Source: Actinoallomurus soli
GTDB lineage: Bacteria > Actinomycetota > Actinomycetes > Streptosporangiales > Streptosporangiaceae
Direction of reading: 5' to 3'
DNA: 64,000 nt
Assembly (NCBI RefSeq): GCF_024055715.1
Contig: NZ_JAMXMV010000013.1
Location: 1-64,000, forward strand
Shown: in pieces, positions 5,241 through 20,816 of the stretch
Numbering within the stretch: the first letter of the stretch is position 1
Layout: every line of letters starts with the position of its first letter
Notes under the pieces: model-generated
Told to the model about the DNA's origin: nothing
The model's input: only the letters and a program-made list of their open reading frames with translations
The model's database searches: none
Program-made: the position numbers and the translations under genes

Positions 5241-5256
5241 GCGCTAAGATATATCC
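5236..5256 (+). promoter_or_regulatory. GCGCTAAGATAT operator/promoter of the aldehyde dehydrogenase gene
   Basis: TTTAAGCGCTAAGATATATC is an AT-rich island containing the half-palindrome AGCGCT and a TAAGAT that could act as -10 (5245-5250). The element recurs upstream of the Mo-hydroxylase, cupin and MFS genes. It is proposed as the binding site of the local MarR protein. Confidence 0.6.
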
Positions 5257-5287
5257 GCCTTGTCGCCGAGTGGTGGGAGCGGATCCG

Positions 5288-7487: not shown

Positions 7488-7526
7488 AAACCTTAGCGAC
7501 AAACTATTTAGCGCTAAGTCTAATCG
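7488..7526. promoter_or_regulatory. divergent operator with perfect palindrome TTAGCGCTAA
   Basis: The region between the MarR gene and the Mo-hydroxylase operon holds CCTTAGCGAC (7491-7500) and the perfect 10-bp palindrome TTAGCGCTAA (7509-7518). On the minus strand the first reads GTCGCTAAGG followed by TTTTT. Two facing copies of the GCTAAG element fit autoregulation plus control of the divergent operon. Confidence 0.65.
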
Positions 7527-7586: not shown

Positions 7587-8408
7587 ATGCGCGTGCTCTC
7601 CACCGGGCTCGTGGCTCCCACGCAGCGCACGATCCCGGACTTCCGGCTGCGGCGGCCGCGCACGATCGCCGAAGCGGTCCAGACCGGTTCCGCCGACGGC
7701 GCCGTCTACGCCCAGGGCTGCACCGACCTGTTCGCGCGGTTCCGCGAGGGACTGGACTGCTCCTCCCTCGTCTGGCTGGCGGACATCGATGAGCTGACCC
7801 GGATCGGCTGGGACGGCCGGACGCTGGAGATCGGCGCGGGGGTCGGGCACCACGCCGGCTCCGGAGACGCCGCGGTGCGCGCGGCCCTGCCCGGCCTCGC
7901 GGCCGGCTGGCGGCGCATCGCCAACCACCGCATCCGGCTCCGGGCCACCATCGGAGGCAATCTCATGGCCCGGCGCACGCGCTACGAGATGTCGATCATG
8001 CTCGACGCCCTGGGCGCGGAGCTGTCGTTCGCCGCGCCGGACGGCGGGCACACGCTCGCCCCCGCCGACCTGTGGCACCGGCGCGAGCCGCGGGGAGCGC
8101 TGCTGCACACCATCCGGATCCCCGAGGTGCCGGGCACGTGGTTCGGCTACGAGCGCTCGCTGCGGCCGCTGCTGACCGTGGCCGCCGCCGTCCGCCGGGA
8201 CACCGTCCGGATGAGCGTGGGCTCGGAGTACACGCGTCCGTACGCCGTCGAGGCGCCGATCGGCACCGCGCCCGCCGAGATCGCCGCGATGCTGCCCGAG
8301 GAGATCGGTGACGCGGCCGGGAGCGCGCGATACCGGCGGCACGCGGCCGGTGTCCTGCTCGGCCGGCTGCTGGAACGGTTCACCGCCGGAGAGGAGCACC
8401 TCGGATGA
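7587..8408 (+). CDS. molybdenum hydroxylase FAD-binding (medium) subunit
   Basis: This 273-aa FAD-binding subunit of a xanthine-oxidase-family enzyme passes electrons from the Fe-S subunit to the acceptor. DFRLRRPRTIAEAVQ near the start and the FAD-binding stretch RLRATIGGNLMARR around residues 115-130 are typical, as is the CO-dehydrogenase-flavoprotein-like C-terminus. GGAGG at 7572-7576 precedes the ATG. It is the first gene of a three-gene operon in medium-small-large order, with stop and start of the next gene overlapping (ATGA). The promoter carries the shared operator. Confidence 0.88.
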   Translation: MRVLSTGLVAPTQRTIPDFRLRRPRTIAEAVQTGSADGAVYAQGCTDLFARFREGLDCSSLVWLADIDELTRIGWDGRTLEIGAGVGHHAGSGDAAVRAALPGLAAGWRRIANHRIRLRATIGGNLMARRTRYEMSIMLDALGAELSFAAPDGGHTLAPADLWHRREPRGALLHTIRIPEVPGTWFGYERSLRPLLTVAAAVRRDTVRMSVGSEYTRPYAVEAPIGTAPAEIAAMLPEEIGDAAGSARYRRHAAGVLLGRLLERFTAGEEHLG

Positions 8409-8890
8409 GCGATCCGATCACCATCGAGTTCGGCCTGGACGGGGAGCGAAGGCGCGAGCGCATCGCGCCGAACACGGTCCTGCTCGACCTGCTGCGCGAC
8501 CGCTGCGGCCGGCTCGGCGTGAAGGCGTCGTGCGAGCGCGGGGTCTGCGGCGCGTGCACGACCCTGATCGACGGGGTGCCCGTCGCGTCCTGCGGCGTCT
8601 TCGCCTTCAGCGTGGACGGGTCGTCGGTGGAGACGGTGGAGGGCCGGGGCCGCGCGGACGATCTCGGCCCGGTGCAACGGGCCTTCGCCGAATGCGGCGG
8701 GTTCCAGTGCGGTTATTGCACGCCGGGGATGGTCATGCTGACCACCGCTCTGCTGCGGGAGCACGTCGAGCCCGACGACGAGCTGATCCGGTCGTGGATC
8801 TCCTCGAACATCTGCCGCTGCACCGGATACCAGATGATCATCGACTCGGTGCGCCGGGCGGCCGAGCTGGTCCGTGAGGAGCGCGGATGA
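8405..8890 (+). CDS. molybdenum hydroxylase [2Fe-2S] (small) subunit
   Basis: This 161-aa iron-sulfur subunit has both clusters visible: the plant-ferredoxin-type ligands in CERGVCGACTTL (about residues 40-52) and the C-terminal helical cluster in CGGFQCGYCTPGM and NICRCTGY. All eight cysteines expected for the family are present. The ATG overlaps the end of the flavoprotein gene and the stop overlaps the start of the large subunit, so translation is probably coupled to give equal subunit amounts. Confidence 0.93.
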   Translation: MSDPITIEFGLDGERRRERIAPNTVLLDLLRDRCGRLGVKASCERGVCGACTTLIDGVPVASCGVFAFSVDGSSVETVEGRGRADDLGPVQRAFAECGGFQCGYCTPGMVMLTTALLREHVEPDDELIRSWISSNICRCTGYQMIIDSVRRAAELVREERG

Positions 8891-11205
8891 GTGCGGGACA
8901 CGCCGTCGTCGGCACCGGGACGGCCCAGCGCGAGCGGCACGCCGTCGTCGGCACCGGGGCGCGCCGGAGCGACGCCGCCCCGAAGGTGACCGGCGGGGCA
9001 CGGTACACCGCCGACGTGCGGCTGCCGGGGATGCTGCACGCCAAGGTGCTGCGGAGCCCGCACGCGCACGCCCGGGTGGTGTCGGTGGACGCGAGGCGGG
9101 CGCGGGCGCTGGACGGCGTGCACGCCGTCCTCACTCGCGACGACCTCGGCGGGCTGTCCCCGACGTACGGCTACTTCATCAAGGACCAGCCCGTCGTGGC
9201 CATCGACCGGGTCCGCTACGTCGGTGACGTGGTCGCGGCGGTCGCCGCCGTGGACGAGCGGGTCGCGCTGCGCGCGCTCGAGCTGATCGACGTGGTGTAC
9301 GAGCCGCTGCCCGCGGTCCCGGACATCGACGCCGCGCTCGCCGCCGACGCGCCGGAGCTGTTCGAGGACGCGCCGCCCGGAATCGTCCCGCCGTACGGCA
9401 CAGGCGCCTCGGGCCGCCTGCGGCCGCGCCGGAACGTCTGCTACGAGTTCCGTTACGAGACCGGCCCGGAGGACGCCTGGGCCGAATGCGACCACGTCTT
9501 CGAGGACACGTTCGTCTTCTCCCGGATGAACCATTTCCACCTGGAACCGTTCGTCACCGTCGCCGACGTGCGCGGCGAGCAGATCGAGATCTGGACCTCG
9601 ACCCAGAACCCGTTCCCGCTGCGCAGGGAGCTGGCCCGGGTCCTCCAGGTCGAGGAGAACCGCATCCGGGTGCACGTGCCGTACGTCGGGGGCGGGTTCG
9701 GCGCGAAGCACAACTGCAAGACCGAGCCGATCGCCATCCTCCTGTCCCGCCTGGCCGGGCGCCCGGTGCGCTACTGCCTCACGACCGAGGAGGGCTTCCT
9801 CACCCTCAGCCAGCACTCGGCCGTGCTGACGGTGCGGACCGGCGTGCGGGCCGACGGCACGTTCGTCGCACGGGACAGCACGGTGCTGCTGGAGGCGGGC
9901 GCCTACTCCGACGGCAGCCCGCTCGTCGCGGAGAAGGCCGCCTACCGGATGCCCGGGCCGTACCGCTGGAAGCGCGTCGAGTCGTCCTGCGCGTGCGTGA
10001 TGACCACCACGACGCCCACCGGTCCGTTTCGCGGCTTCGGCGCGACCCAGTCGACCTGGGCGAGCGAGAGCCAGGTCGACATGATCGCCCGCCGGCTCGG
10101 CATGGACCCGTACGACCTGCGGATGAAGAACCTCAAAGCGCTCGGTGAGCCGTTCGTGCCGGGGGAGAGCGGCATCGACAGCGACCTGGCCGAGGGTCTG
10201 GAGGTCGTCGCCGGCGCGCTGGGCTACCACGCGCGCCCGCGCACGCCGAACCGCGGGATGGGACTGGCCATCGGGTTCAAGGACGGCGGCGGCGTGAACA
10301 AGCCGGCGCAGGCCCGGGTGAAGGTCTCCACGGCCGGCGACGTGTACGTCAGCTGCGGGACGGTGGAGATCGGGCAGGGCGCGTCCACCACGCTGTGCCA
10401 GGTCGCCGCCGAGGTGCTGGGCGTCCCGCTCCGGCGGGTGGTCTACGCCCCGATCAACACCGATGTCACCCCCTTCGACCAGGGCACCAACGCCTCCTCG
10501 GGAATGACCGTGATGGGGCAGGCGGTCCTGCGCGCGGCCGAGGCGGTCCGCGCGCAGGTGCTGGAGTTCGCGGCGGAGCGGCTCGGCTGTACGGCCGCCG
10601 AGCTGACCCTGCGGGACTGGGCGGTGCGGCGCGGCGACGAGGTCACACCGCTGCCCGGCCTCATCACGGCCGTCTTCGGCGGCACGGGCTTCGAGTTCTC
10701 CGGCTCGGGCTTCTTCAAGGCGCCCAACTCCCGCGAGGCGCCGCTGGACGCGCCGTGCGTGTTCTGGGAGATCGGCTGGGCGGGCGCGGAGGTCGAGGTC
10801 GATCCGGACACCGGCAAGGTCACGGTGCTGCAGCTGGTGGCCAGCGGGGACGTCGGCAAGGCCGTCAACACGCTGGTCTGCCGCGGACAGGACGAGGGCG
10901 CGGCGGTGATGGGCCTCGGCCAGGCGCTCTTCGAGGAGATGCGCTTCGACGACGGCGTCCTGCTGAACGGCGAGGCGCTGGACTACCGGGTGCCGATGGC
11001 GGAGGACCTGCCCGAGCGGTTCGTCTCGATCACCCAGGAGCAGGGGCACGGCCCCGGGCCGTTCGGCGCGAAGGGCGCCGGCGAGGGGGCCATGGTCCCG
11101 GTGGCCGCGGCCATAGCGAACGCGGTGCACGACGCGACGGGGGCGCGGATCAGCACCCTGCCGCTGTCGCCGGAGCGGGTGTTCGACGCGCTCCAGACCC
11201 GCTAG
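8887..11205 (+). CDS. molybdopterin-binding (large) subunit of a molybdenum hydroxylase
   Basis: This 772-aa catalytic subunit of the xanthine oxidase/CO dehydrogenase family hydroxylates a carbon next to nitrogen or an aldehyde, using water and a molybdopterin cofactor. Seen are VTGGARYTADVRLPGMLHAKVLR (written here in part only as a family start), GGGFGAKHN, the substrate-channel motif PTGPFRGFGATQS, and GAKGAGEGAM with the presumed catalytic glutamate near residue 730. The CO-dehydrogenase active-site motif VAYRCSFR is absent, so CO is not the likely substrate. With a Rieske oxygenase and ring-cleavage enzyme next door, an N-heteroaromatic or aromatic aldehyde is more plausible. Cofactor-maturation genes (XdhC/CoxDEF type) are not in the window. 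Confidence 0.9.
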   Translation: MSAGHAVVGTGTAQRERHAVVGTGARRSDAAPKVTGGARYTADVRLPGMLHAKVLRSPHAHARVVSVDARRARALDGVHAVLTRDDLGGLSPTYGYFIKDQPVVAIDRVRYVGDVVAAVAAVDERVALRALELIDVVYEPLPAVPDIDAALAADAPELFEDAPPGIVPPYGTGASGRLRPRRNVCYEFRYETGPEDAWAECDHVFEDTFVFSRMNHFHLEPFVTVADVRGEQIEIWTSTQNPFPLRRELARVLQVEENRIRVHVPYVGGGFGAKHNCKTEPIAILLSRLAGRPVRYCLTTEEGFLTLSQHSAVLTVRTGVRADGTFVARDSTVLLEAGAYSDGSPLVAEKAAYRMPGPYRWKRVESSCACVMTTTTPTGPFRGFGATQSTWASESQVDMIARRLGMDPYDLRMKNLKALGEPFVPGESGIDSDLAEGLEVVAGALGYHARPRTPNRGMGLAIGFKDGGGVNKPAQARVKVSTAGDVYVSCGTVEIGQGASTTLCQVAAEVLGVPLRRVVYAPINTDVTPFDQGTNASSGMTVMGQAVLRAAEAVRAQVLEFAAERLGCTAAELTLRDWAVRRGDEVTPLPGLITAVFGGTGFEFSGSGFFKAPNSREAPLDAPCVFWEIGWAGAEVEVDPDTGKVTVLQLVASGDVGKAVNTLVCRGQDEGAAVMGLGQALFEEMRFDDGVLLNGEALDYRVPMAEDLPERFVSITQEQGHGPGPFGAKGAGEGAMVPVAAAIANAVHDATGARISTLPLSPERVFDALQTR

Positions 11206-11221
11206 ATCGGGAGAGCCAAAT

Positions 11222-11272
11222 TTACTTAGTGCTCAGATGCTCATCGCGTGATATCTTTGCGCTAAGATTTTT
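11222..11272. promoter_or_regulatory. operator/promoter of the cupin-Rieske operon
   Basis: Two copies of the island motif face each other: CTTAGTGCTCAGAT (11225-11238; minus strand GCACTAAG) and TTTGCGCTAAGATTTT (11256-11271), with TAAGAT at 11263-11268 as a possible -10. The 94-bp gap is AT-rich compared with its surroundings. It starts the longest operon of the island. Confidence 0.6.
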
Positions 11273-11299
11273 TCCGCACAACAACGGAGGTAGAGGGCA

Positions 11300-11821
11300 G
11301 TGAGCGACACACCGACCACCGGCGCGACCGACCTGGAAGCCCTGATCGACTCCTGCATCGCCAGCAAGGACAGCCGGTACGAGGACTGGGACACCCTCGG
11401 CTTCCAGGCCAAGGCCGGCGACGAGTTCCGGCGCGCGCAGATCCGCTACATCGGCTCCGGCGCCACCGGGAACCACGAGACCGACAGCCGCATCATCCCG
11501 TCGGGCGGCTTCACCTTCTCCAACATGAGGCTCCCGGCCGGCGCCGTCGGCCCCGAGCACACCCACCACGACGCGGAGGAGGCGTTCTTCGTCCTCGAGG
11601 GCACCCTCGAGGTGACCGTCCACGACGTCGAGGACGGCACGAAGACCGCGAGCCGCGTGCTCGGCTACCGCGACCTGATCCGCGTGCCGGCCGGGGTGCC
11701 CCGCAGCCTGCGCAACATCGGCGACACCGACGCGCTCTTCTGCGTGATCATCGGCACGCGCAAGCCCCAGGTCCCGACCTACCCGCCGACCTCCCCGATG
11801 CACGGCATCACGCGGGACTGA
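11300..11821 (+). CDS. cupin-domain protein
   Basis: This 173-aa single-cupin protein keeps the metal-binding pattern in GPEHTHHDAEEAFFVLEG (two histidines and a glutamate, about residues 88-104) and a second motif region RVPAGVPRSLRNIGDTDAL. It starts at GTG with GGAGG 9 nt upstream. It is first in the operon and one base ahead of the reductase gene. Cupins in such clusters can be dioxygenases, isomerases or ligand-binding accessory proteins; the sequence does not decide between these. Confidence 0.8.
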   Translation: MSDTPTTGATDLEALIDSCIASKDSRYEDWDTLGFQAKAGDEFRRAQIRYIGSGATGNHETDSRIIPSGGFTFSNMRLPAGAVGPEHTHHDAEEAFFVLEGTLEVTVHDVEDGTKTASRVLGYRDLIRVPAGVPRSLRNIGDTDALFCVIIGTRKPQVPTYPPTSPMHGITRD

Positions 11822-11822
11822 C

Positions 11823-12752
11823 ATGCGTGAGCTCCGCCTGACCCAGGTGACCTGGCTGGCCGAGGGCGTCGTGCGGCTCGAGTTCACCGACCCCGGCGGC
11901 GCCGAGTTGCCGGCCTGGGAGCCCGGCGCCCACCTGTCCCTGCGCCTGCCGAACGGCCTGACCCGGGAGTACTCCCTGTGCGGCGACCCGGGCGACCGCC
12001 GCCGCTACGCGGTGGCGGTGCAGCGGGAGAAGGGCTCGCGCGGCGGCAGCGCCTGCGTGCACGAGAGGCTGCGGGTCGGCGACCTCGTCGAGGTGGCCGG
12101 GCCGCAGAACGACTTCCCGCTCGAGGACGCACCGGCGTACGTGCTCGTCGCGGGCGGGATCGGCATCACCCCGATCAAGGCGATGGCGGAGACGCTCGCG
12201 GCCCGCGGAGCGCGGTGGCGGCTGTTCCACTGCGGCGCCGCCCGTGCTCGGATGGCCTTCACCGACGAGCTGAGCGCGCTCGGCGACGTCGTCGTCCACG
12301 CCGACGACGAGGCGGGCGGCCCGCCGGACCTCGCCGCCGTGCTCGCCGGGCTTCCCGCCGACGCCCTGGTCTACTGCTGCGGCCCCGAACCGCTGATCCA
12401 GGCGGTCGAGGCGGCCATGGCCGATCCCACGCGCTTGCGCGTCGAGCGGTTCCGCGCGCCCGAGCCGCCGAAGACCGGAGGAGACACGGCGTTCACGGTG
12501 ACCTGCGGCCGGTCCGGGCGCAGCCTCACCGTCGAACCCGGCGTCTCCGTCCTCGCGACGCTGCGCGCCGCCGGGATGGACCTGCCGTCCTCGTGCGAGG
12601 AGGGCATCTGCGGCACCTGCGAGACACGGGTGCTGACCGGCGAGCCCGACCACCGCGACTTCCTGCTCACCGACGCGGAACGGGCGGCGGGCGGCTCGAT
12701 GATGCTGTGCGTCTCCCGCTCCCGCGGCCCCGAACTCGTCCTCGACCTCTGA
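11823..12752 (+). CDS. phthalate-dioxygenase-reductase-type FMN/[2Fe-2S] oxidoreductase
   Basis: This 309-aa electron-transfer protein is the expected partner of the Rieske oxygenase. It has an FMN-binding barrel with REYSLCGDP (about residues 49-57), an NAD-binding domain with AGGIGITPIKAMA and CCGPEPLIQAVEAAM, and a C-terminal plant-type [2Fe-2S] domain with SSCEEGICGTCE and a final MLCVSR. The order FMN-NAD-ferredoxin is that of PDR/VanB-type reductases. It begins 1 bp after the cupin gene. The oxygenase system thus looks two-component (reductase and oxygenase) with no separate ferredoxin. Confidence 0.93.
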   Translation: MRELRLTQVTWLAEGVVRLEFTDPGGAELPAWEPGAHLSLRLPNGLTREYSLCGDPGDRRRYAVAVQREKGSRGGSACVHERLRVGDLVEVAGPQNDFPLEDAPAYVLVAGGIGITPIKAMAETLAARGARWRLFHCGAARARMAFTDELSALGDVVVHADDEAGGPPDLAAVLAGLPADALVYCCGPEPLIQAVEAAMADPTRLRVERFRAPEPPKTGGDTAFTVTCGRSGRSLTVEPGVSVLATLRAAGMDLPSSCEEGICGTCETRVLTGEPDHRDFLLTDAERAAGGSMMLCVSRSRGPELVLDL

Positions 12753-12890
12753 CGGCGGCCGCCCCCGGCCGCCCGCCCCGGCGGCCGCCCGGTCCGCCCC
12801 TGACCCGACCGCCCGGTCCGCCCTCGCGGCCGTCCGGTCCACCCTCGTCCGGCGGCCGTCCGGTCCGCCCCGATCCCGGAAGGGAGCGTC
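12753..12890 (+). repeat. low-complexity GC spacer with repeated CCGCCCGGTCCGCCC
   Basis: The 138-bp gap between the reductase and the 73-aa gene is made of imperfect repeats of GGCCGYCCGGTCCRCCC, about five copies with irregular spacing, in nearly pure GC sequence. No gene or terminator is evident. A ribosome-binding site (GGAAGGGAG) for the next gene closes it. Confidence 0.5.
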
Positions 12891-13112
12891 ATGACCCTGA
12901 GACTGCAGCCGGTCCAGTCCCGGCAACGTGAGCTGACCAGCTACGAACACGCGCTGGCCGACGAGCTCGAGGCCATCTTCGGCCGGGGGGTGCACGACCT
13001 GCCCGGACTGGTCGCCGCGCTCAACGAGACCGGCGTGCGCCCGGCCGGCGGCGCCGACTGGACCGAGGAATCCTTCACCGCCGAGATCGCCCGACTTGGA
13101 GCGCCAGAATGA
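12891..13112 (+). CDS. 73-aa protein resembling a recombinase helix-turn-helix
   Basis: This small protein of 73 residues is translationally coupled to the Rieske gene, whose ATG overlaps its TGA. The C-terminal half, LVAALNETGVRPAGGADW and then TEESFTAEIARLG, resembles the segment of large serine recombinases that reads 'ALNERGIPTPRGGxWTxxTVxxIL'. There is no catalytic recombinase domain. The N-terminal half, RQRELTSYEHALADELEAIF, is predicted helical. Its position, immediately before the oxygenase, suggests an accessory or assembly protein rather than a recombinase. Its function is unknown. Confidence 0.75.
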   Translation: MTLRLQPVQSRQRELTSYEHALADELEAIFGRGVHDLPGLVAALNETGVRPAGGADWTEESFTAEIARLGAPE

Positions 13113-14170
13113 CGAGACATCCGGCCAACGCCGCCCTCGACACCGTCGACGGGCTCATCCGGCTCGGTCTGCGCAACCAGTGGTACGCCCTGTGCCGGTC
13201 GGACCAGGTCCCGGCCGGCGGCCTCATCCGGCTCGACCGCGTCGGCGAGGAGCTGATGCTCTGGCGCGACGCCGACGGCGCCGTCCACGTTCAGGAGGAC
13301 CGCTGCCCGCACCGCGGCGCGCGGCTCACCCAGGGCGTGCACATGGGCGACCGGGTCGCCTGCAACTACCACGGCGTGCAGGTCGACGCCGAGGGCGTCG
13401 TCGTGTCCGTGCCCGGCGTGCCCGGCTGCGCCCTGGAGGGGCGGCGGGCCCTGCGGACCTTTCCCGCGCGGGAGCACGGCGGGGCGGTCTTCGCCTGGTT
13501 CGGCGATCCCGACGACGCCGAGCCGCTGCCGTTCGAGGTGCCCGAGCAGCTCGCGTCGCCGGAATGGGACCACTTCCTGGCCTACGTCGAGTGGGACGCG
13601 CCCTGGATCTACTCCCTCGACAACCTGATGGACCCCATGCACGGCGCCTTCCTGCACCGCAAGTCCCACACGATGAGCGGCGGCAGGCGCGAGGCGCTGT
13701 TCCAGATCCGCGACACCGACACCGGGTTCGTCTTCGAGAAGACCGACCAGGCCGGCGTGAACTTCGACTGGTCGGAGTGGATCGCCGGCGGCACGCCGTG
13801 GGTGCGGCTGGACATCCCCTACCCGGCGACCGCCGGTCCCGGCGGCCCGTTCACGATCGTCTGCACCGCCACCCCGATCAACGAGACCCAGCACGCGGCC
13901 TTCTTCTGGCGCTGCCGGAAGGTGACCGGCTGGGAGCGCGACACCTGGCGGTTCCTGTACAAGGCGCGGCTGGAGGCCCGGCACTGGGCGGTGCTCGAAC
14001 AGGACCGGCTGATGGAGGAGGCGATGCCGCTCGACGCCTGGTCGCGGGAGACCCTCTACCAGCACGATCTGGCGCTCGTCCGGCTGCGCCGCGCGATCCG
14101 CGCCGAGGCCCAGCGTCAGCTCGCCGCCCGCGAGGAGCACGCGAAGCAGGGCGCGGAGGTGCGGGCGTGA
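13109..14170 (+). CDS. Rieske non-heme iron oxygenase, alpha subunit
   Basis: This 353-aa oxygenase component hydroxylates an aromatic or related substrate with O2. The N-terminal Rieske domain has CPHRGA and CNYHG (about residues 67-94, two Cys and two His). The catalytic domain carries DNLMDPMHGAFLHRK (about residues 172-186), which supplies the two histidines of the iron site and the bridging aspartate. The length and the lack of a beta-subunit gene suggest a homotrimeric enzyme of the phthalate/vanillate type. It overlaps the 73-aa gene upstream and the extradiol dioxygenase gene downstream. The start context is ATGA. Confidence 0.93.
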   Translation: MTRHPANAALDTVDGLIRLGLRNQWYALCRSDQVPAGGLIRLDRVGEELMLWRDADGAVHVQEDRCPHRGARLTQGVHMGDRVACNYHGVQVDAEGVVVSVPGVPGCALEGRRALRTFPAREHGGAVFAWFGDPDDAEPLPFEVPEQLASPEWDHFLAYVEWDAPWIYSLDNLMDPMHGAFLHRKSHTMSGGRREALFQIRDTDTGFVFEKTDQAGVNFDWSEWIAGGTPWVRLDIPYPATAGPGGPFTIVCTATPINETQHAAFFWRCRKVTGWERDTWRFLYKARLEARHWAVLEQDRLMEEAMPLDAWSRETLYQHDLALVRLRRAIRAEAQRQLAAREEHAKQGAEVRA

Positions 14171-15096
14171 CCGAGGCGTCCCAGGAGCCGATCGCCCGCC
14201 TGCGCACGCTGCGCAGCGTCGCTCTCCGCACCCCGGAGGCGAGTGAGGCGGCCGAGTTCTACCAGCACGTGTGGGGGCTGTCGCGGATCGAGGGCGACCA
14301 CGGCGTCGCCTGGCTGCGCGGCAGCGGCCCCGAGCACCACATCCTCGAGGTGCGCGAGGCCGAGCGGAACGCCCTCGGCAAGATCGCCTTCGCCGTGGCC
14401 ACTCCCCGTGAGGTCGACGAGGCGGCCTTCCGCCTCGCGGCCCGCGGCATCCCGCTGGTCACCGAGCCCGGGCTCCTGGACCAGGCCGGCGGCGGGTACG
14501 GTCTGCGGTTCGCCGACCCCGAGGGCCGTCTGGTGGAGGTGTCCACCCAGGTCGAGGCCGTGACGCCCCGGGACGCCGGCGGCCACGAGGCGGTCCCGCG
14601 CAAGCTCGCCCACGTCGTGCTCAACACCACCGACATCGACGCGGCCTGCGCCTTCTACACCGACGTCCTGGGCATGCGCGTGTCGGACTGGTCGGAGCAC
14701 CAGATGGTGTTCCTCCGGTGCAACGGCGACCACCACGTCATCGCGTTCAACCAGGCGCCCTGGACGTCGCTCAACCACGTCGCGTACGAATTGCCGTCGG
14801 TCGACCACTTCATGCGCGGCATCGGCCGCCTCCGGCACCACGGCATCACGCCGAAGTGGGGGCCGGGGCGGCATGGTCCCGGCAACAACACCTTCTCCTA
14901 CTTCACCGACCCCGCCGGACTCGTCTGCGAGTACACCTCCGAGGTGGAGCAGGTCGACGAGGACGCCTGGCTCTGCCGGGTGTGGCGGCGGGTGCCCGAG
15001 CTGTCGGACCTGTGGGGGACCGCCGGGCCGCCCTCGGCGGACGTCCGGTCGCACATGGCCGGCGTGCCCGACACCGGACGGTGGTGGGAGAAGTGA
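14167..15096 (+). CDS. type I extradiol (VOC-family) dioxygenase
   Basis: This 309-aa two-domain vicinal-oxygen-chelate protein is of the size of catechol 2,3-dioxygenase-like and biphenyldiol dioxygenases. The C-terminal domain keeps the likely metal ligands: His in LAHVVLNT, His in SLNHVAYE and Glu in GLVCEYTSE. The N-terminal domain is the degenerate, structural one. It would cleave the catechol made by the Rieske system next to the diol. The GTG at 14167 overlaps the Rieske TGA, and the open frame further upstream is only the out-of-frame shadow of the Rieske gene. Confidence 0.87.
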   Translation: MTEASQEPIARLRTLRSVALRTPEASEAAEFYQHVWGLSRIEGDHGVAWLRGSGPEHHILEVREAERNALGKIAFAVATPREVDEAAFRLAARGIPLVTEPGLLDQAGGGYGLRFADPEGRLVEVSTQVEAVTPRDAGGHEAVPRKLAHVVLNTTDIDAACAFYTDVLGMRVSDWSEHQMVFLRCNGDHHVIAFNQAPWTSLNHVAYELPSVDHFMRGIGRLRHHGITPKWGPGRHGPGNNTFSYFTDPAGLVCEYTSEVEQVDEDAWLCRVWRRVPELSDLWGTAGPPSADVRSHMAGVPDTGRWWEK

Positions 15097-15797
15097 GGAG
15101 CGTCGCCGTCATCGGCCGGGGCGCGATCGGCGGAGTCGTCATCGGCGCGCTGGAACGCGGCGAGGTGCCGGGCGCCCGGCTCACGGCCGTCGTCGACCTC
15201 GGCGATCCCCTGGCGGACGCGCTCGCCGTGGCGGACCTGGTCGTCGAGTGCGCCGGGCAGGCCGCGCTCGCCGAACACGGCCCGAACGTCATCGCGGCAG
15301 GCCGTGACCTGCTCGTCGTCTCGATCGGCGCCCTGACCGACGACGCGCTGCATGAGCGGCTGCGCCGCGGGCCGGGCCGGCTGTTCCTGACCTCCGGGGC
15401 GGTCGGGGGCCTGGACCTGCTGCGCGCGGCGGCGGCGATGGCGCCGCTGGACCAGGTGCGGATCGTCACCACCAAGAAGCCCGCCACCCTCGGCGTGCCG
15501 GACGCGACCGGCCCGGTCGAGGTCATGCGCGGCCCCGCCCGGCAGGTCGCCGCGGCCTTCCCCAGGTCCACGAACGTCGCGGCGGCGGTCGCGCTGGCCG
15601 TCGGCTCCTTCGACGTCGTGGAGGCGGTCGTCGTCGCCGACCCGGCCGCGACGCTGACCTCCCACGTGATCACCGCGTCGGGACCGGCGGGGGAGTACCG
15701 CTTCGAGATCCGCAACCGGCCGTCGGCGGCGAACCCGGCCAGCAGCCAGGTCGTCCCGCACGCGGTGCTGGCCACCCTCCGGGACCTGGCCCGATGA
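15093..15797 (+). CDS. aspartate-dehydrogenase-like oxidoreductase
   Basis: This 234-aa protein of the NadX/L-aspartate dehydrogenase family has a short NAD-binding start SVAVIGRGAIGGVVIGAL and the family's substrate-side stretches SGAVGGLDLLRAAAAMAPL and FPRSTNVAAAVALAVG. The GTG overlaps the preceding TGA. True NadX makes iminoaspartate for NAD synthesis, but no nadA or nadC is nearby. In this operon it more likely acts on an amino or oxo acid intermediate. It is somewhat shorter than typical NadX (about 265 aa), mainly in the nucleotide-binding half. Confidence 0.8.
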   Translation: MRSVAVIGRGAIGGVVIGALERGEVPGARLTAVVDLGDPLADALAVADLVVECAGQAALAEHGPNVIAAGRDLLVVSIGALTDDALHERLRRGPGRLFLTSGAVGGLDLLRAAAAMAPLDQVRIVTTKKPATLGVPDATGPVEVMRGPARQVAAAFPRSTNVAAAVALAVGSFDVVEAVVVADPAATLTSHVITASGPAGEYRFEIRNRPSAANPASSQVVPHAVLATLRDLAR

Positions 15798-16630
15798 CGG
15801 CCCGTACGGGCGGTGGAGTGCACGTTACCGAGCACGGCGGGCCGGGCGCTCCGGTGACGGTCCGTACGGGCGGTGGAGTGCACGTCACCGAGCACGGTGG
15901 GTCCGGCGATCCGGTCCTGCTGCTGCACGGGATCGGCGGCAGCGCCGACTCCTTCGCCGACCAGTTCGCCGCGCTCGCGGCCCGGCACCGGGTGCTCGCC
16001 TGGGACGCCCCGGGTTACGCGCGGTCCGCCGACCCGGCGGACGCCCCCGGCATGGCGGGCTACGCCGCGGCCGCCGCCGCGCTGCTGCGTGAGCGGGGAG
16101 CCTCACCGGCACACGTCGTCGGCGTCTCCTGGGGCGGTGTCATCGCCACCCGCCTCACACTCGACCACCCGGAGCTCGTGCGGACCCTCGTCCTCGCCGA
16201 CTCGACGCGAGGCTCGGGCCGTACGAAGGAGAAGGCCGCGGGCATGCGGCGGCGCGCCGGCGAACTGGCCGCGGCCGGGCCGGAGGCGTTCGCCCGCGCC
16301 CGCGCGCCCAAGCTGGTGTCCGCCGAGGCCCCCCACGAGCTGGTGGACCGGGTCGCGACCGCGATGGCGCGGTCGATACGGCTGCCCGGTTACGCCTACG
16401 CGGCCGCCTCGATGGCCGAGACCGATCACGATGGGGTGCTCGGTCGGATCTCCGTCCCCACGCTGGTCGTCGCCGGCGACCGTGACGTCGTCACCGGGGT
16501 GGCGGAGAGCGAGGCCATCGCGGCGGCCGTGCCCGGAGCCCGGTTCGAGGTGATCGCGGGCGCCGGGCACCTGTCCAACGTCGAACGCCCCGAGGCGTTC
16601 AACCGTCTCCTCCTGGAGTTCCTGACTTGA
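15794..16630 (+). CDS. alpha/beta hydrolase, meta-cleavage-product type
   Basis: This 278-aa alpha/beta hydrolase is probably the C-C bond hydrolase that follows extradiol cleavage. It has the oxyanion motif LLHGIGGSADSF, the nucleophile in GVSWGGVIA (about residue 118), the acid in VAGDRDVVTG and the histidine in GAGHLSN. The N-terminus carries a 20-residue tandem repeat (TARTGGGVHVTEHGGPGAPV, then TVRTGGGVHVTEHGGSGDPV). The start at 15794 overlaps the previous TGA; the second copy also begins with a GTG (15854) that could serve as start. Pathway order suggests a BphD-like role, but substrate is unknown. Confidence 0.87.
   Translation: MTARTGGGVHVTEHGGPGAPVTVRTGGGVHVTEHGGSGDPVLLLHGIGGSADSFADQFAALAARHRVLAWDAPGYARSADPADAPGMAGYAAAAAALLRERGASPAHVVGVSWGGVIATRLTLDHPELVRTLVLADSTRGSGRTKEKAAGMRRRAGELAAAGPEAFARARAPKLVSAEAPHELVDRVATAMARSIRLPGYAYAAASMAETDHDGVLGRISVPTLVVAGDRDVVTGVAESEAIAAAVPGARFEVIAGAGHLSNVERPEAFNRLLLEFLT
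15795..15914 (+). repeat. 60-bp tandem duplication at the hydrolase start
   Basis: Two direct 60-bp copies (about 15795-15854 and 15855-15914) differ at only a few positions, mostly silent or conservative. They encode a 20-residue repeat and duplicate the likely start codon. The high identity suggests a recent slippage or duplication event. Confidence 0.8.
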
Positions 16631-16635
16631 CCTCT

Positions 16636-16940
16636 CCCCCAGCTGAAGCAGGGGGATCCACCCCTCGCGGGTTGAGCTTTCTGCTTCGCGGCCCGTTGCC
16701 GACCCGGATCACCGGCGAGGGACGGAGTGCCGCCCATCGGTCCTACACAAGCTCCACAGACCTGACATCCCGCCAGCCCGGCGGTAGACCCGGCGAGCTT
16801 GGTCTCCGCCCGCCGAGCGGCACTCACGCTAGCACTCGCTCACAAGCGGGGCGGAAGGTCGCGGAAATCCACCCAGGCGGATTTCCGATCCCTGCTTTGC
16901 TCCGCAGAGGTTCGATTCCTCCCCCGCCTCAAGGCGGGGG
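16636..16940. mobile_element. ~300-bp IS200/IS605-like non-autonomous element or remnant
   Basis: The 328-bp gap between two operon genes is flanked by hairpins: CCCCCAGCTGAAGCAGGGGG (16636-16655) and CCCCCGCCTCAAGGCGGGGG (16921-16940). An internal stem GGAAATCC/GGATTTCC lies at 16863-16886. Subterminal hairpins without inverted terminal repeats, and the 'tgaagcaggggga' type of end, resemble palindrome-associated ends of IS200/IS605/TnpB-type elements in actinobacteria. There is no transposase or TnpB gene. The right hairpin abuts the SDR gene's GGAGG ribosome-binding site. A transcription attenuator is the alternative reading. Confidence 0.55.
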
Positions 16941-16958
16941 TCTCCCCGGAGGTATCCG

Positions 16959-17696
16959 ATGAAGGATCGGCTGGTCGTCGTCACCGGCGCGGGCCGCGGG
17001 CTCGGCCTGGCGATCGCACGGGCGGTCGGCGAGGCCGGCGCCCGGATCGTGATCGCCGAACGCGACCCCGGGCGGGCGGCCGCCGCGCACGCAGAGCTGA
17101 CCGGGGCGGGCGTCACCGCGCACCGGATCGACACCGACGTCTCCGATCCGGACTCGGTCGCCGCCCTCGCCGACGCGGTCCGTGACCTCGGCGGGGCGTA
17201 CGGGCTGGTCAACAACGCGGCCCTCGCCGACGGGGTCGGCGGCAAGCCGTTCCACGAGATCGACGTGGCGGAGTGGGACCGCCTGATGGCCGTGAACGTC
17301 CGAGGCCCGTGGCTCGTCTCACGCGCGCTGTTCCCGCACCTGGCGCGGCCCGGCCGGATCGTCAACCTCGCCTCCGACGCCGCGATCTACGGCTCGCCGC
17401 GGCTCGCGCACTACGTGACCTCCAAGGGCGCGGTGATGGCGATGACCCGTGCGATGGCCCGCGACGCCGGGCCGCACGAGATCACCGTGAACGCGGTCGC
17501 GCCCGGTCTCACCGAAGGGGACGCGGCCGACCTGATCCCGGCCGAACGGCACGAGCTGTACCGGATCAACCGGGCGCTGACCCGTCCGCAGCGCCCGGAC
17601 GACCTGACCGGCGCCGTCCTGTTCCTGCTGTCGGACGCCGCGTCGTACATCACCGGGCAGACGCTCGTGGTGGACGGCGGATTCGTCTTCAACTGA
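16959..17696 (+). CDS. short-chain dehydrogenase/reductase (classical)
   Basis: This 245-aa classical SDR has the cofactor motif TGAGRGLG (about residues 9-16), NNAA, the catalytic serine in NLASDAA, and YVTSK with the Tyr-x-x-x-Lys pair near residue 152. The C-terminus SYITGQTLVVDGGFVF is typical. GGAGG upstream of the ATG lies immediately beyond the hairpin of the inserted element. It could oxidise a cis-dihydrodiol or a hydroxy intermediate of the pathway, but no feature decides the substrate. Confidence 0.9.
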   Translation: MKDRLVVVTGAGRGLGLAIARAVGEAGARIVIAERDPGRAAAAHAELTGAGVTAHRIDTDVSDPDSVAALADAVRDLGGAYGLVNNAALADGVGGKPFHEIDVAEWDRLMAVNVRGPWLVSRALFPHLARPGRIVNLASDAAIYGSPRLAHYVTSKGAVMAMTRAMARDAGPHEITVNAVAPGLTEGDAADLIPAERHELYRINRALTRPQRPDDLTGAVLFLLSDAASYITGQTLVVDGGFVFN

Positions 17697-17717
17697 CTTG
17701 ATCGAGGGGGCTTCGCG

Positions 17718-18500
17718 ATGGATCTCGGTCTGAGCGGCCGCGTCTACCTCGTCACCGGCGCCAGTTCCGGGGTGGGGCTGGCCACGGCGGCGGCGCTGCT
17801 GCGGGAGGGCGCTTCGGTCGCGGCCTGCGCCCGCGACGGGGAACGGCTGCGCCACGCGCTCGACCGGCTGCCGCGTACGGGCGGGGCGCAGGCGCATGTC
17901 GGCGCGTGCGACGTGGTCGACGGCGCGGCGGTCGCGGACTTCACCGCGGCGGCGCATGCGCGCCTCGGCCGTCTCGACGGGGTGGTCAACAACGCGGGCC
18001 GGTCGCTCATGGCGCCGGTGGCCGACACCACCGAAGAGCAGTGGCGGGAGGAGTTCGAGCTGAAGATCTTCAGCGTGCTCAACACGGTCCGCGCCGCCGG
18101 GCCGTACCTGCGGGCGTCCGACGCCCCGGCCGTCGTCAACGTCAACGCCATCCTCGCGCGTCAGCCCGAGCCGCGGCTGGGCGCGACCTCGGCCGCCCGC
18201 GCGGCGCTGCTGAACCTCACCAAGACCTTGTCGGCCGACCTCGCCCCCATCCGGGTGAACTCGGTGGCCCTGGGCCTGATCGACACCGGGCAGTGGCGGC
18301 GGCGCTACGAGGCCGCCGCCGACGGGCGGGGCTACGCGGAGTGGTCCGCGCGGATCGCCGCCGACCGGGGGATCGCGCTCGGCCGGTTCGGCCGGGCCGA
18401 GGAGATCGCCTATCCGATCATCGCGTTGCTGTCCCCGCACGCGTCCTACGTCACCGGCGCGACGCTCGACGTCGGTGGAGGAGTTGCCAGATATGTCTGA
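17718..18500 (+). CDS. SDR-family protein lacking the Tyr-x-x-x-Lys motif
   Basis: This 260-aa SDR-fold protein keeps TGASSGVG at the N-terminus and NNAG, and ends with SYVTGATLDVGGG. Where the catalytic YxxxK should stand it reads RLGATSAARAALLNLTKTL, so Tyr and Lys are replaced (Ala/Thr and Arg). The preceding serine position reads NVNAIL. It is therefore either an SDR with an altered mechanism or a non-catalytic partner of the upstream SDR. It begins 21 bp after that gene, with GAGGGGG as ribosome-binding site, and its end overlaps the ThDP enzyme gene. Confidence 0.85.
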   Translation: MDLGLSGRVYLVTGASSGVGLATAAALLREGASVAACARDGERLRHALDRLPRTGGAQAHVGACDVVDGAAVADFTAAAHARLGRLDGVVNNAGRSLMAPVADTTEEQWREEFELKIFSVLNTVRAAGPYLRASDAPAVVNVNAILARQPEPRLGATSAARAALLNLTKTLSADLAPIRVNSVALGLIDTGQWRRRYEAAADGRGYAEWSARIAADRGIALGRFGRAEEIAYPIIALLSPHASYVTGATLDVGGGVARYV

Positions 18501-20106
18501 TGGAGGGGACCTGCTGGTCCAGGTGCTGCGCGAGCACGGCGTCGACACCGTCTTCGGTGTCGTCAGCGTGCACAACCTCCCGCTGGTCGAGGCCGTGGAC
18601 CGCGGGCTGCGGTTCGTCGCGGTCCGCCACGAGGCGGCGGCGGTCAACGCCGCCGACGCCCACGCCCGCGTGCGAGGCGGGCTCGGCTGCGCGCTGACCA
18701 GCACCGGAACGGGCGCCGGCAACGCGGCCGGATCGCTGGTCGAGGCGCTCACCGCGGGCAGCCGGGTCCTGCACGTGACCGGGCAGATCGACAGCGGGCA
18801 TCTCGGCCAGGGCCGGGGCGTGATCCACGAGACCAAGGACCAGCTCGGCATGCTGACGGCGGTCTCGAAGTTCGCCGTCACCGTGCCGTCGGCCGAGGCG
18901 GCGCCCGGCGTGCTGCGCGACGCCGCCCGCCGCGCGCTGGCCGTACCGTACGGGCCGGTCAGCGTCGAGTGGCCGATCGACCTGCAGTACGCCGCGCAGA
19001 CGCCCACACCACAGGAGCCGGAACGGCACGAGCCGATCCCGGTCCCCGACGTCGGTGCGGCGGTCCGGCTGGTCGCCGGCGCGCGCAGGCCGGTCATCTG
19101 GGCGGGCGGCGGTGCCCGTGAGGCCCGCGCGCAGGTGCGGGAGCTGGCCGAACGCCTCAGCGCGCCGGTGCTGACCTCCAACGCGGGCCGCGGCGTGATC
19201 GAAGAGGACCACGAGCTGGTCGTGGGAAATTTCGCGGTCAACCCGGCGGCCGCGCCGCTCCTGGCGGAGGCGGACCTGCTGATCAGTGTGGGCACGCACT
19301 TCCGGTCGAACGAGACCCGGCACTACCGTCTCACGCTGCCCGCCCGGCACCTGCAGATCGACGTCGATCCGGCGGCGATCGGCCGGGTGTATCCGGCGAC
19401 CGCCGGGCTGTGCGGTGACGCGGCGCCCACGCTCACCGCGCTCCTGGCGGCCCTGGGCGAGCCGGCGGTCGCGGACGGCTGGCGGCAGCGCGCCGTCGCC
19501 ACGCGGTCGGCGGTCCGCGCCAGGCTGCGCTCTGACATCGGCGACTACGCCCTCATCTGCGACGCCATGCGGAGACACCTTCCGGCCGGATCTCCGGTCG
19601 CGCGGGACGTCACCATCCCGTCGAGTCAGTGGGGCAACCGGCTGCTGCCGATCCTCGACCCGGCGACCAACGTCTTCCCGCTCGGCGGGGGGATCGGGCA
19701 GGGGCTGGCGATGGGGATCGGGGCCGCCCTGGCCCGTCCGGACGTTCCGACGCTCGTCATCGCCGGTGACGGCGGCCTCGCGGTGCACCTGGGGGAGCTG
19801 GCGACGCTGGCCCAGGAGGCCCCCTGGCTGGTGCTCGTGGTGTTCAACGACGGCGGGTACGGCGTGCTGCGCAACATGCAGGAGGCCGGTTCCGGCCGCC
19901 GCTCCGGTGTGGATCTCTACACGCCGGACTTCCGTACGCTCGCGGCCTCCCTCGCGCTGCCGTACTCCCTGGTCGGCTCCGCGGACCGCTTCGAGGAGGT
20001 GTTCGCGGCCGCGGTGGCGGCGCGCGCGCCGTACGTCGTGGAGGTCGACGTGACGGCGATCGGCCCGACGCCGGTTCCGTTCGTGCCGCCGGTGGAGGTG
20101 CCGTGA
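18493..20106 (+). CDS. thiamine-diphosphate-dependent enzyme (acetolactate synthase/benzoylformate decarboxylase family)
   Basis: This 537-aa three-domain ThDP enzyme has the conserved activating glutamate in VRHEAAAVNAADAHAR (about residue 47). Its central domain has TSNAGRGVI, and the ThDP-binding motif is IAGDGG...VVFNDGGYGVLRN (about residues 425-460). The ATG at 18493 is preferred because GGAGGAG lies about 9 nt upstream; it overlaps the SDR stop. No long extra domain or FAD-specific signature is obvious. Likely reactions are decarboxylation of a 2-oxo acid to an aldehyde, or carboligation. An aldehyde product could feed the island's aldehyde dehydrogenase. This is inference from context. 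Confidence 0.88.
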   Translation: MSDGGDLLVQVLREHGVDTVFGVVSVHNLPLVEAVDRGLRFVAVRHEAAAVNAADAHARVRGGLGCALTSTGTGAGNAAGSLVEALTAGSRVLHVTGQIDSGHLGQGRGVIHETKDQLGMLTAVSKFAVTVPSAEAAPGVLRDAARRALAVPYGPVSVEWPIDLQYAAQTPTPQEPERHEPIPVPDVGAAVRLVAGARRPVIWAGGGAREARAQVRELAERLSAPVLTSNAGRGVIEEDHELVVGNFAVNPAAAPLLAEADLLISVGTHFRSNETRHYRLTLPARHLQIDVDPAAIGRVYPATAGLCGDAAPTLTALLAALGEPAVADGWRQRAVATRSAVRARLRSDIGDYALICDAMRRHLPAGSPVARDVTIPSSQWGNRLLPILDPATNVFPLGGGIGQGLAMGIGAALARPDVPTLVIAGDGGLAVHLGELATLAQEAPWLVLVVFNDGGYGVLRNMQEAGSGRRSGVDLYTPDFRTLAASLALPYSLVGSADRFEEVFAAAVAARAPYVVEVDVTAIGPTPVPFVPPVEVP

Positions 20107-20150
20107 GCCACGGGCACGGGCCCGCGAACCGCGGGCGGAGGGTGCTGACC

Positions 20151-20816
20151 ATGGCGGCGCCCCTCTTCGTGCGGGAACCGGACGGTGAGCCCCGGGGCGG
20201 CGCGGTCGTCCTGCACGACGTCTTCGGGGTCACGGAATACGCCGAGGACGTCTGCCGCGCGCTGGCCCGCACGGGCCGGCTGGCGGTCTCCCCCTACCTG
20301 TACTACCAGCGGGGCGGTCCGGCCTTCGACGCCGAGGAGCTGGGCGCCGCACGCGGCCATATGGCGGAGCTGGCCGCCGAGGACCTGGCCGCCGACATCG
20401 ACGCCGCGCTGGGCTACCTGCGCGCCCGTACGGCGGGCCCCGTGCTCGTCGTCGGGTTCAGCATGGGCGCCCACCTGGCGACGTGGGCGGCGGCCCGGCA
20501 CGAGCTGGCGGCGGTGGTCGCGGTGAGCCCGTCGGGCGTCGGGGCGTCCCCGTGGCCGGGCGTGCCGCCGGCCGAGCTCCTGATCGCCGAACGGAGGACG
20601 CCGTGGCTGGGCGTCGTGGGCGGCGCGGACTCCAGGGTGGACGTCGGCCTGCTGGAGATGGCGGCGCGGCTGCCGGGCCCGGCGGCCGCCGTCGAGGTGA
20701 TCGCCGGGGCCGGGCACGGTTTCTACCGGAGCGGCCACCCCGAACATGATCCAGACGCGGCCGCGGAGATCCGGCGTAGGATCGGGTGCTTCCTGGAGAA
20801 AAAACCTTTGTCCTAA
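20151..20816 (+). CDS. dienelactone-hydrolase-like alpha/beta hydrolase with serine nucleophile
   Basis: This 221-aa DLH-family hydrolase (from the ATG at 20151, GGAGG 9 nt upstream; a GTG at 20103 overlapping the ThDP stop would add 16 residues) shows the family start VVLHDVFGVTEYAEDVCRAL and the region YLYYQRGG. The nucleophile elbow reads GFSMGAHLA, with serine where classical dienelactone hydrolases have cysteine. Acid and base appear as GGADSRVD and GAGHGFYR. It may be an esterase or lactonase acting late in the pathway. It is the last gene of the operon before the MFS promoter. Confidence 0.83.
   Translation: MAAPLFVREPDGEPRGGAVVLHDVFGVTEYAEDVCRALARTGRLAVSPYLYYQRGGPAFDAEELGAARGHMAELAAEDLAADIDAALGYLRARTAGPVLVVGFSMGAHLATWAAARHELAAVVAVSPSGVGASPWPGVPPAELLIAERRTPWLGVVGGADSRVDVGLLEMAARLPGPAAAVEVIAGAGHGFYRSGHPEHDPDAAAEIRRRIGCFLEKKPLS

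Follow-up and report, generated by a model that had tools for sequence, protein, structure and literature searches.

The bacterial breakdown of kynurenate has been known from biochemistry since about 1960, and it proceeds in the order of 7,8-dioxygenation, dihydrodiol dehydrogenation, 8,8a extradiol cleavage, reduction, 2-oxo-acid decarboxylation and aldehyde oxidation. The degradation of kynurenate by Pseudomonas is reportedly associated with the names of Behrman, Hayaishi and Taniuchi (EC 1.14.99.2, 1.3.1.18 and 1.13.11.10), and a 1961 paper by Horibata is said, by its title, to concern the formation of glutamate from kynurenate by Pseudomonas extracts. We know of no sequence for the kynurenate 7,8-dioxygenase, the dihydrodiol dehydrogenase or the 7,8-dihydroxykynurenate 8,8a-dioxygenase. 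Quinaldic acid 4-oxidoreductase, a molybdenum (Mo) hydroxylase of Serratia and Pseudomonas, has three subunits and would deliver kynurenate, and by this description it resembles the entry enzyme proposed here. The quinoline 2-oxidoreductase/2-oxoquinoline 8-monooxygenase route (Protein Data Bank [PDB] entries 1t3q and 1z01) has its Mo-hydroxylase and Rieske families in common with the present system, but it is a monooxygenation route of the coumarin type, with no set of thiamine diphosphate (ThDP) enzyme, aldehyde dehydrogenase (ALDH) and L-aspartate dehydrogenase (AspDH). Here, a gene cluster of Actinoallomurus soli is described, which lies in a stretch of 64,000 nucleotides (the window; contig NZ_JAMXMV010000013.1, positions 1 to 64,000, to which the coordinates refer unless labeled otherwise). 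As proposed, its route resembles the Pseudomonas pathway in the order of the reaction types and in the glutamate product, whereas the late section and the entry via the Mo-hydroxylase are put forward only here. We infer the substrate from the gene set, and the chance appears about even that the cluster is a MarR-controlled regulon for the aerobic degradation of kynurenate (4-hydroxyquinoline-2-carboxylate) and, via the Mo-hydroxylase, of quinaldate.

In the proposed pathway, for which all genes are on the + strand, quinaldate would be converted into kynurenate (step 0) by the Mo-hydroxylase, a putative quinaldate 4-oxidoreductase with an FAD subunit (7587..8408; PF00941 E 8.3e-23), a [2Fe-2S] subunit (8405..8890; PF01799 E 1.4e-29) and a molybdopterin subunit (MoL, 8887..11205; PF02738 E 1.2e-69, PF20256 E 2e-63). 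The Rieske oxygenase α-subunit (13109..14170; PF00355 E 1.2e-20, also from alignment), as the candidate kynurenate 7,8-dioxygenase and with the PDR/VanB-type reductase (11823..12752; PF00111, PF00175) as its presumed partner, would generate the 7,8-dihydrodiol (step 1). The first short-chain dehydrogenase/reductase (SDR1, 16959..17696; PF13561 E 1.2e-56, YxxxK motif), a proposed cis-dihydrodiol dehydrogenase, would then form 7,8-dihydroxykynurenate (step 2), and the type I (VOC) extradiol dioxygenase (14167..15096; PF00903 E 6.5e-30), as the putative 7,8-dihydroxykynurenate 8,8a-dioxygenase, would cleave it to 5-(3-carboxy-3-oxopropenyl)-4,6-dihydroxypicolinate (step 3). Reduction of the side-chain C=C bond of this cleavage product would be by the second SDR (SDR2, 17718..18500; PRK07062 equivalog at 338 bits, cut-off 266; atypical catalytic centre) (step 4), followed by decarboxylation to the formylethyl compound by the ThDP enzyme (18493..20106; PRK07064 equivalog at 685.8 bits, cut-off 495), a proposed 2-oxo-acid decarboxylase (step 5), and by oxidation of this intermediate to 5-(2-carboxyethyl)-4,6-dihydroxypicolinate by the ALDH (5270..6763; PF00171 E 2.7e-164) (step 6). 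The cupin (11300..11821; PF07883 E 3e-14, with an HxH...E metal motif) is the candidate ring-opening dioxygenase, and its oxygenolytic cleavage of the C4-C5 bond would give N-(2-oxoglutaryl)aminofumarate (step 7). Amide hydrolysis by the PcaD-like α/β hydrolase (15794..16630; PF00561 E 5e-28 and NCBIfam ranking) would release 2-oxoglutarate and aminofumarate/iminoaspartate (step 8), and the AspDH-like enzyme (15093..15797; AspDH_C domain, PF01958 E 1e-23) would reduce iminoaspartate to L-aspartate (step 9). The intermediates of steps 1 to 6 are those of the known biochemistry; we infer the assignment of the enzymes to the steps, and also steps 0 and 7 to 9.

With these steps, the ten carbon atoms would be recovered as one CO2, five in 2-oxoglutarate and four in aspartate, in which the nitrogen also ends, and the formulae of the late steps would be C9H9NO6 + O2 = C9H9NO8, and with H2O, C5H6O5 + C4H5NO4. 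The presence of an AspDH is thereby explained, because the N1-C2(COOH)-C3-C4 part of 5-(2-carboxyethyl)-4,6-dihydroxypicolinate has the skeleton of aspartate, while the skeleton of glutarate is made up of C5 and C6 with the side chain. The proposed 2-oxoglutarate product is also in agreement with the glutamate formation that Horibata is said to have observed. A candidate family for the dioxygenase, the dihydrodiol dehydrogenase, the extradiol dioxygenase, the reductase, the decarboxylase and the ALDH is in each case present and co-conserved, the reductase (SDR2) being the weakest. No hydratase or aldolase is found among the cluster open reading frames (ORFs) of the window (the relatives were not searched for them), and an extradiol enzyme accompanied instead by a decarboxylase-like ThDP enzyme and an ALDH would match a bicyclic substrate that, once cleaved, retains a CH=CH-CO-COOH side chain. 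The earlier note on this DNA, made from the letters alone, had listed the Mo-hydroxylase, the Rieske enzyme and its reductase, the extradiol enzyme, the AspDH-like protein, the two SDRs, the ThDP enzyme, the dienelactone-hydrolase-like (DLH) protein and the cupin, and the family matches confirm that these genes are real. It is also borne out that they are one catabolic set, apparently made for an N-heteroaromatic compound. The AspDH, the ThDP enzyme and the cupin, which the earlier note could not fit into a pathway, all fit the kynurenate route known from the biochemistry of the 1960s.

The conservation of the cluster was assessed with 87 loci (L001–L087), all of them found or picked through cluster proteins and several cut by contig ends. 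Eighty of these are actinobacterial loci, the best 80 of at least 550 retrieved via the ThDP enzyme, and this set is thus biased towards window-like clusters. Among the 87 loci, the extradiol enzyme is present in 79, SDR2 and the cupin in 80 each, the Rieske enzyme in 78, SDR1 and the hydrolase in 77 each, ALDH in 70, a 73-residue small protein in 69, the PDR reductase in 68, AspDH in 63 and DLH in 11; L078, L081 and L084 have a ThDP match only. The core (Rieske enzyme, SDR1, extradiol enzyme, SDR2, ThDP enzyme, ALDH, cupin, hydrolase and AspDH) recurs in Actinomycetota and Pseudomonadota, without the Mo-hydroxylase, and without both Mo-hydroxylase and DLH it is found in most of the 80 actinobacterial loci. 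It is also found in records of a plasmid collection, labeled Klebsiella pneumoniae, Acinetobacter baumannii, Pseudosulfitobacter, Paracoccus, Caballeronia (four clusters), Nitratireductor and Novosphingobium, and Vibrio nigripulchritudo has part of the cluster, without the Rieske enzyme and SDR1. The search for the same gene set in other genomes, as the earlier note had advised, thus shows that the core is not peculiar to this genome. Within the class, the ThDP enzyme is found at E<=1e-120 in seven of the 345 genomes, being the genome of A. soli and six of one other genus (best three or four candidates scored per genome). A shorter version, with the order Rieske-cupin-SDR1-ThDP-Mo-VOC, is seen in three Acidimicrobiia loci (L072, L074 and L087), in which the fetched stretch has no SDR2, AspDH or ALDH.

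Several clusters that have the same core, at about 28–61% identity to the proteins of the window, are not connected with a named pathway: those of the records labeled K. pneumoniae (L002), A. baumannii (L003), Caballeronia (L006, L088, L090 and L091) and Paracoccus (L005). Several of these have a ferredoxin and an FAD-dependent oxidoreductase instead of the PDR reductase of the window, and they have an IclR regulator, whereas the window has MarR; they also have no Mo-hydroxylase, except for a second module on the Caballeronia plasmid pNK84.

The upper part of the cluster looks like a cis-dioxygenase and a dihydrodiol dehydrogenase feeding an extradiol step. Of the 79 loci with both the extradiol and the ThDP enzyme, 74 have the Rieske enzyme together with SDR1 and four have neither of the two (L051 is on a cut contig). 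The four loci without them (L035, L050, L068 and L083) all carry a flavin monooxygenase, which is seen in 11 of the 67 actinobacterial loci that have the Rieske enzyme (p 0.0014 for 11/67 vs 4/4, not corrected for phylogeny). Because the Rieske enzyme and SDR1 come and go together, with the flavin enzyme standing in for them, both routes seem to make a catechol for the extradiol enzyme. For the same reason, that SDR1 is present and absent together with the Rieske enzyme, a role of the latter as an O-demethylase was rejected. The best model for the flavin monooxygenase (two members scanned) is 3-hydroxybenzoate 6-monooxygenase, below its cut-off, and in the Vibrio cluster (L094) its gene is in two pieces (19229-20313). 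The flavin monooxygenase (L050 13188-14315; also in L068, L083, L035 and L094) is a candidate xanthurenate 7-hydroxylase.

Carbazole 1,9a-dioxygenase and 2-oxoquinoline 8-monooxygenase are among the proteins in the PDB to which the Rieske protein is related, and no Rieske β-subunit is found among the cluster ORFs. The extradiol protein has two VOC modules, in which His, His, Glu and His/Tyr are conserved in eight aligned sequences, as in a type I extradiol dioxygenase; in these enzymes, His-His-Glu is the iron site and a His is the acid/base. Its nearest solved relative is a VOC protein (PDB entry 3b59, E 5.8e-69), whose title names no pathway.

SDR2 has TxxxR instead of YxxxK in all five aligned SDR2 proteins, from two phyla, so it does not have the canonical SDR centre and differs from the standard alcohol dehydrogenases. 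Among solved structures, it is closest to the short-chain oxidoreductase Q9HYA2 (PDB entries 3lf1/3lf2, E 3.5e-65 for 3lf1), for which the PDB titles name no pathway. Q9HYA2 is presumably PA3507 of P. aeruginosa, beside an AspDH gene, and its publication reportedly describes an atypical catalytic centre. For the ThDP enzyme, the model of 5-guanidino-2-oxopentanoate decarboxylase ranks third (286.4 bits). His87, His89, Glu93 and Arg135 of the cupin are invariant in 15 and in 24 aligned sequences, and Ser112, Asp231 and His259 of the hydrolase are invariant in 13. The hydrolase scores 142.6 to 161.1 bits with PcaD-type enol-lactonase models, vs 75.8 for HsaD and 53.7 for BphD, and the label of meta-cleavage hydrolase given in the earlier note is consequently weak. 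A classical meta-cleavage pathway (Bph/Hsa/Mhp) was rejected, as the hydrolase is nearer to PcaD and the cluster ORFs of the window encode neither a hydratase nor an aldolase.

The AspDH-like protein belongs with the L-aspartate dehydrogenases by its AspDH_C domain and by a His that is conserved in all six aligned sequences, and it falls below the NCBIfam AspDH cut-offs (best score 150.4 vs 184). Clusters of both Actinomycetota and Pseudomonadota retain the gene. A check of 14 genomes, which had been selected because their clusters contain AspDH, showed in all 14 that the cluster gene is the only AspDH_C gene of the genome. Aspartate dehydrogenase activity is documented for the AspDH of K. pneumoniae 34618 (PMC5554190), which is assumed here to be the cluster gene of L002. 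In nine cluster genomes there is no AspDH, and a RidA-type gene is found beside the cluster in seven of these nine, vs 12 of the 59 others (p 0.0013, not corrected for phylogeny); one of the two without RidA is L051, with its cut contig. AspDH and RidA could both deal with iminoaspartate. A strict exchange of AspDH for RidA was rejected, as the first count (10/12 vs 9/56) was too strong, with three of the 12 genomes having AspDH outside the fetched locus. In Caballeronia M1242 (L088/L096), RidA occurs together with an AspDH match that runs to the end of the circular record.

The Mo-hydroxylase belongs to the xanthine oxidase family, as its FAD, 2Fe-2S and Mo-cofactor subunits all score above the Pfam cut-offs. 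A GAKGAGEG stretch with a Glu, which we take to be the catalytic residue, is visible in its sequence. The best PDB relative of MoL is 4-hydroxybenzoyl-CoA reductase (1rm6), quinoline 2-oxidoreductase (1t3q) being another. Identity with 4-hydroxybenzoyl-CoA reductase was rejected (TIGR03194, 481 bits vs a cut-off of 994.55; TIGR03195, 59.3 vs 404.55), as was identity with aerobic CO dehydrogenase (CoxL model TIGR02416, 258.5 bits vs 991.15). The FAD subunit of 4-hydroxybenzoyl-CoA reductase carries extra cysteines for a 4Fe-4S cluster; the FAD subunit of the window has two cysteines. A close Mo-hydroxylase (at least 61% identity, the next best being at 39%) is found in 10 of 36 cluster genomes (35 loci and the genome of A. 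soli), which is not an unbiased rate, as every one of the seven loci that showed a Mo-hydroxylase hit was included in the choice. When these seven and the A. soli genome are set aside, it is found in three of 28 genomes: in a Gordonia (G022), it is on the contig of the cluster, about 2 kb past the stretch that was fetched, and is followed by AspDH, and in two others (G015 and G020), a different contig carries it. With three candidates scored per genome, the A. soli genome is the only one of the 345 in the class to have a Mo-hydroxylase at E<=1e-180. The Mo-hydroxylase module thus belongs with the pathway as an optional add-on. The second module on the Caballeronia plasmid pNK84 (L092 11785-21016) lies downstream of a full core cluster and has the order ferredoxin-HTH-Rieske-ThDP-VOC-MoL-MoM-MoS-SRPBCC, its MoL being 34% like that of the window.

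The cluster ORFs of the window are tightly packed on the + strand, most adjacent genes overlapping by a few bases, and they have a coding G+C pattern (local G+C about 73% in the cluster part); the named families are matched in profile searches. A MarR-family regulator gene (6795..7343, - strand; PF12802 E 1.6e-13, start codon picked by eye) diverges from the Mo operon, and MarR relatives adjoin many of the related clusters. Three operator-like palindromes are found: ATTTAAGCGCTAAGAT upstream of ALDH (5235..5250; two mismatches to the longer form ATCTTAGCGCTAAGAT), TTTAGCGCTAAG between the MarR gene and the Mo operon (7507..7518; one mismatch to CTTAGCGCTAAG) and CTTTGCGCTAAG upstream of the cupin operon (11255..11266; one mismatch to CTTAGCGCTAAG). 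The site at 7507 does not match the longer form at up to three mismatches. In Actinoallomurus L101, a TTAGCGCTAAG site is located just upstream of ALDH. In the window and L008–L087, CTTAGCGCTAAG is seen at up to one mismatch at 46 sites in 32 of the 81 actinobacterial stretches, vs 0.2 sites expected from five dinucleotide shuffles per stretch, and nearly all of these sites are just 5' of the start of a MarR, ALDH, VOC, PDR, MFS (major facilitator superfamily), cupin or ThDP gene; a site of L061 (18751) sits behind a MarR gene.

In the whole 9.4-Mb genome of A. soli, the 12-mer CTTAGCGCTAAG is found at up to one mismatch at three places, two of them in this cluster. The genome-wide count by itself is no evidence, because the control, with the pattern read backwards, gives seven matches per strand, against three. 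Co-regulation is rather supported by the position of the sites and by their conservation in the relatives. The third site of the genome (L102 6989; C55:169988) is about 50 bp before a long MFS-like ORF that looks unrelated. The proposal of a single regulated set at 7587-20816 holds insofar as shared palindromes, position and conservation point to one set; its limits were too narrow, as the set also includes ALDH, the divergent MarR gene, the small PF20552 protein and the MFS transporter. The cluster is a real, widespread and co-regulated catabolic gene set.

The alternative that survives best, unlikely as it is, has the same logic with another bicyclic N-heteroaromatic acid (a different carboxylate of the quinoline or 4-quinolone type, or a heterocycle of plant or xenobiotic origin), in which the product of extradiol cleavage likewise undergoes decarboxylation, the AspDH takes the C4N fragment and the Mo-hydroxylase hydroxylates that substrate. 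The substrate is not fixed by the sequence, Mo-hydroxylases and Rieske enzymes also serve quinoline-type routes, and the carbazole and quinoline enzymes among the PDB relatives of the Rieske protein and MoL are compatible with this alternative. However, by chemical reasoning, the combination of ThDP enzyme, ALDH and AspDH suits an N-C(COOH)-C-C(O) unit beside the ring that is cleaved; such a unit is present in kynurenate but not in simple quinolines. A further alternative, which is improbable, is a route for an aromatic amino acid, in which the Rieske enzyme and SDR1 would form a 2,3-dihydroxyphenylalanine-like catechol, the extradiol enzyme would cleave it, the hydrolase would free L-aspartate (as succinate is freed in the Mhp pathway), the AspDH would deaminate this product, and the ThDP enzyme and ALDH would degrade the 2-oxopentenoate half. 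This would, on chemical grounds, account for the AspDH and the hydrolase as well, and the flavin monooxygenases could act on m-tyrosine, but the Mo-hydroxylase of the 10/36 cluster genomes is left without a role, the hydrolase scores PcaD above the C-C hydrolase models, and the transporters at the clusters seen are of the MFS or ABC type, none within a cluster being annotated as an amino-acid permease. Each family is common by itself, but an ordinary meta-cleavage operon for a monocyclic aromatic compound, with a NadX-like AspDH and the Mo-hydroxylase as bystanders, is very improbable, since the cluster ORFs of the window include no hydratase or aldolase, the AspDH is retained across two phyla, and the association with the Mo-hydroxylase recurs.

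Several observations weigh against the degradation of kynurenate and quinaldate as proposed here. The assignment of enzymes to steps rests on chemistry, not on assay, and the roles of SDR2 as a C=C reductase, of the cupin as a ring opener and of the hydrolase as an amidase are guesses. The structure model of the cupin is poor (mean pLDDT 68.5), and its Foldseek matches are mixed, with a Ni-quercetinase first and also oxalate oxidases and sugar enzymes. The sequence of the Mo-hydroxylase does not tell its substrate, and its best PDB match is, as mentioned, a 4-hydroxybenzoyl-CoA reductase. A close Mo-hydroxylase (at least 57%) lies inside the fetched stretch in only six of the 80 actinobacterial loci (Actinoallomurus L008, Streptomyces albidoflavus L085, Nocardioides L030 and the three Acidimicrobiia loci), the hit in L039 being at 28% only, and of the seven class genomes that have the ThDP enzyme, only that of A. 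soli has one. In the three Acidimicrobiia loci, the Mo-hydroxylase is accompanied by neither AspDH nor RidA, and AspDH is missing from the whole genomes as well. The associations with the flavin monooxygenase and with RidA are uncorrected for phylogeny. Tryptophan dioxygenase, which was the only gene of the tryptophan/kynurenine pathway that was looked for, is present in 23 of 36 cluster genomes (that of A. soli being one of the 36 searched), in every case on a different contig or separated from the cluster by 600 kb or more, and it is not found near the cluster.

The MFS transporter gene (20880..22247, + strand), which has counterparts at many of the related clusters, is nearest to the model of aromatic acid:H+ symporters (TIGR00895, 242 bits, under the cut-off of 418.55), and the DLH gene (20103..20816, + strand; PF01738 E 9.4e-21) is accessory. 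The 73-residue protein (12891..13112, + strand; PF20552 HTH_62, E 2.9e-28) belongs to a "recombinase-like HTH" (helix-turn-helix) family, and its gene directly precedes that of the Rieske enzyme, both in the window and in several clusters of proteobacteria; it may be tied to the oxygenase. A DUF3291 gene (4776-5240) lies upstream of ALDH, and its end overlaps the operator-like site there. The 5' end of the hydrolase gene carries a 60-bp tandem duplication (88%; 15791-15910), by which the N terminus of the protein is lengthened by about 20 residues. Between the hydrolase and SDR1 genes, there is a gene-free insert of 328 bp (16631-16958) with the end hairpins CCCCCGCCT and AGGCGGGGG, of which a second copy (82% identity) is present on another contig; this insert is probably a remnant of a small mobile element, and an Rfam scan of 16500-17050 gave no match at the gathering score.

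No genes of the kynurenate pathway were found in the literature, as covered in part by open-license PMC papers (a report elsewhere is possible). The available parts of an orphan-enzyme survey (PMC1940265) contain no match for "kynuren" or for two of the EC numbers, those of PMC13151070 and PMC9309667 contain nothing on bacterial kynurenate genes, and those of the literature on PA3505, including PMC9732424, contain nothing useful for the cluster. The suggestion of an undescribed pathway is thus upheld insofar as no matching characterized operon was found in this literature; more probably, a described pathway without described genes is concerned. It is possible, with slightly less than an even chance, that this cluster and the related ones supply the genes that the breakdown of kynurenate by bacteria has so far lacked, including those of the three enzymes named above for which we know of no sequence, with pyridine-ring opening by a cupin to give 2-oxoglutarate and, via a dedicated AspDH, aspartate, an extension to quinaldate by the Mo-hydroxylase, and flavin-monooxygenase variants for xanthurenate. 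Kynurenic acid is a tryptophan-derived host signaling metabolite. If true, this would provide a testable gene set for its degradation in actinomycetes, in plasmids of soil and marine bacteria, and in records labeled as opportunistic human bacteria; it would also explain the recurring AspDH in an aromatic-degradation cluster and tie a Mo-hydroxylase subfamily to a substrate.

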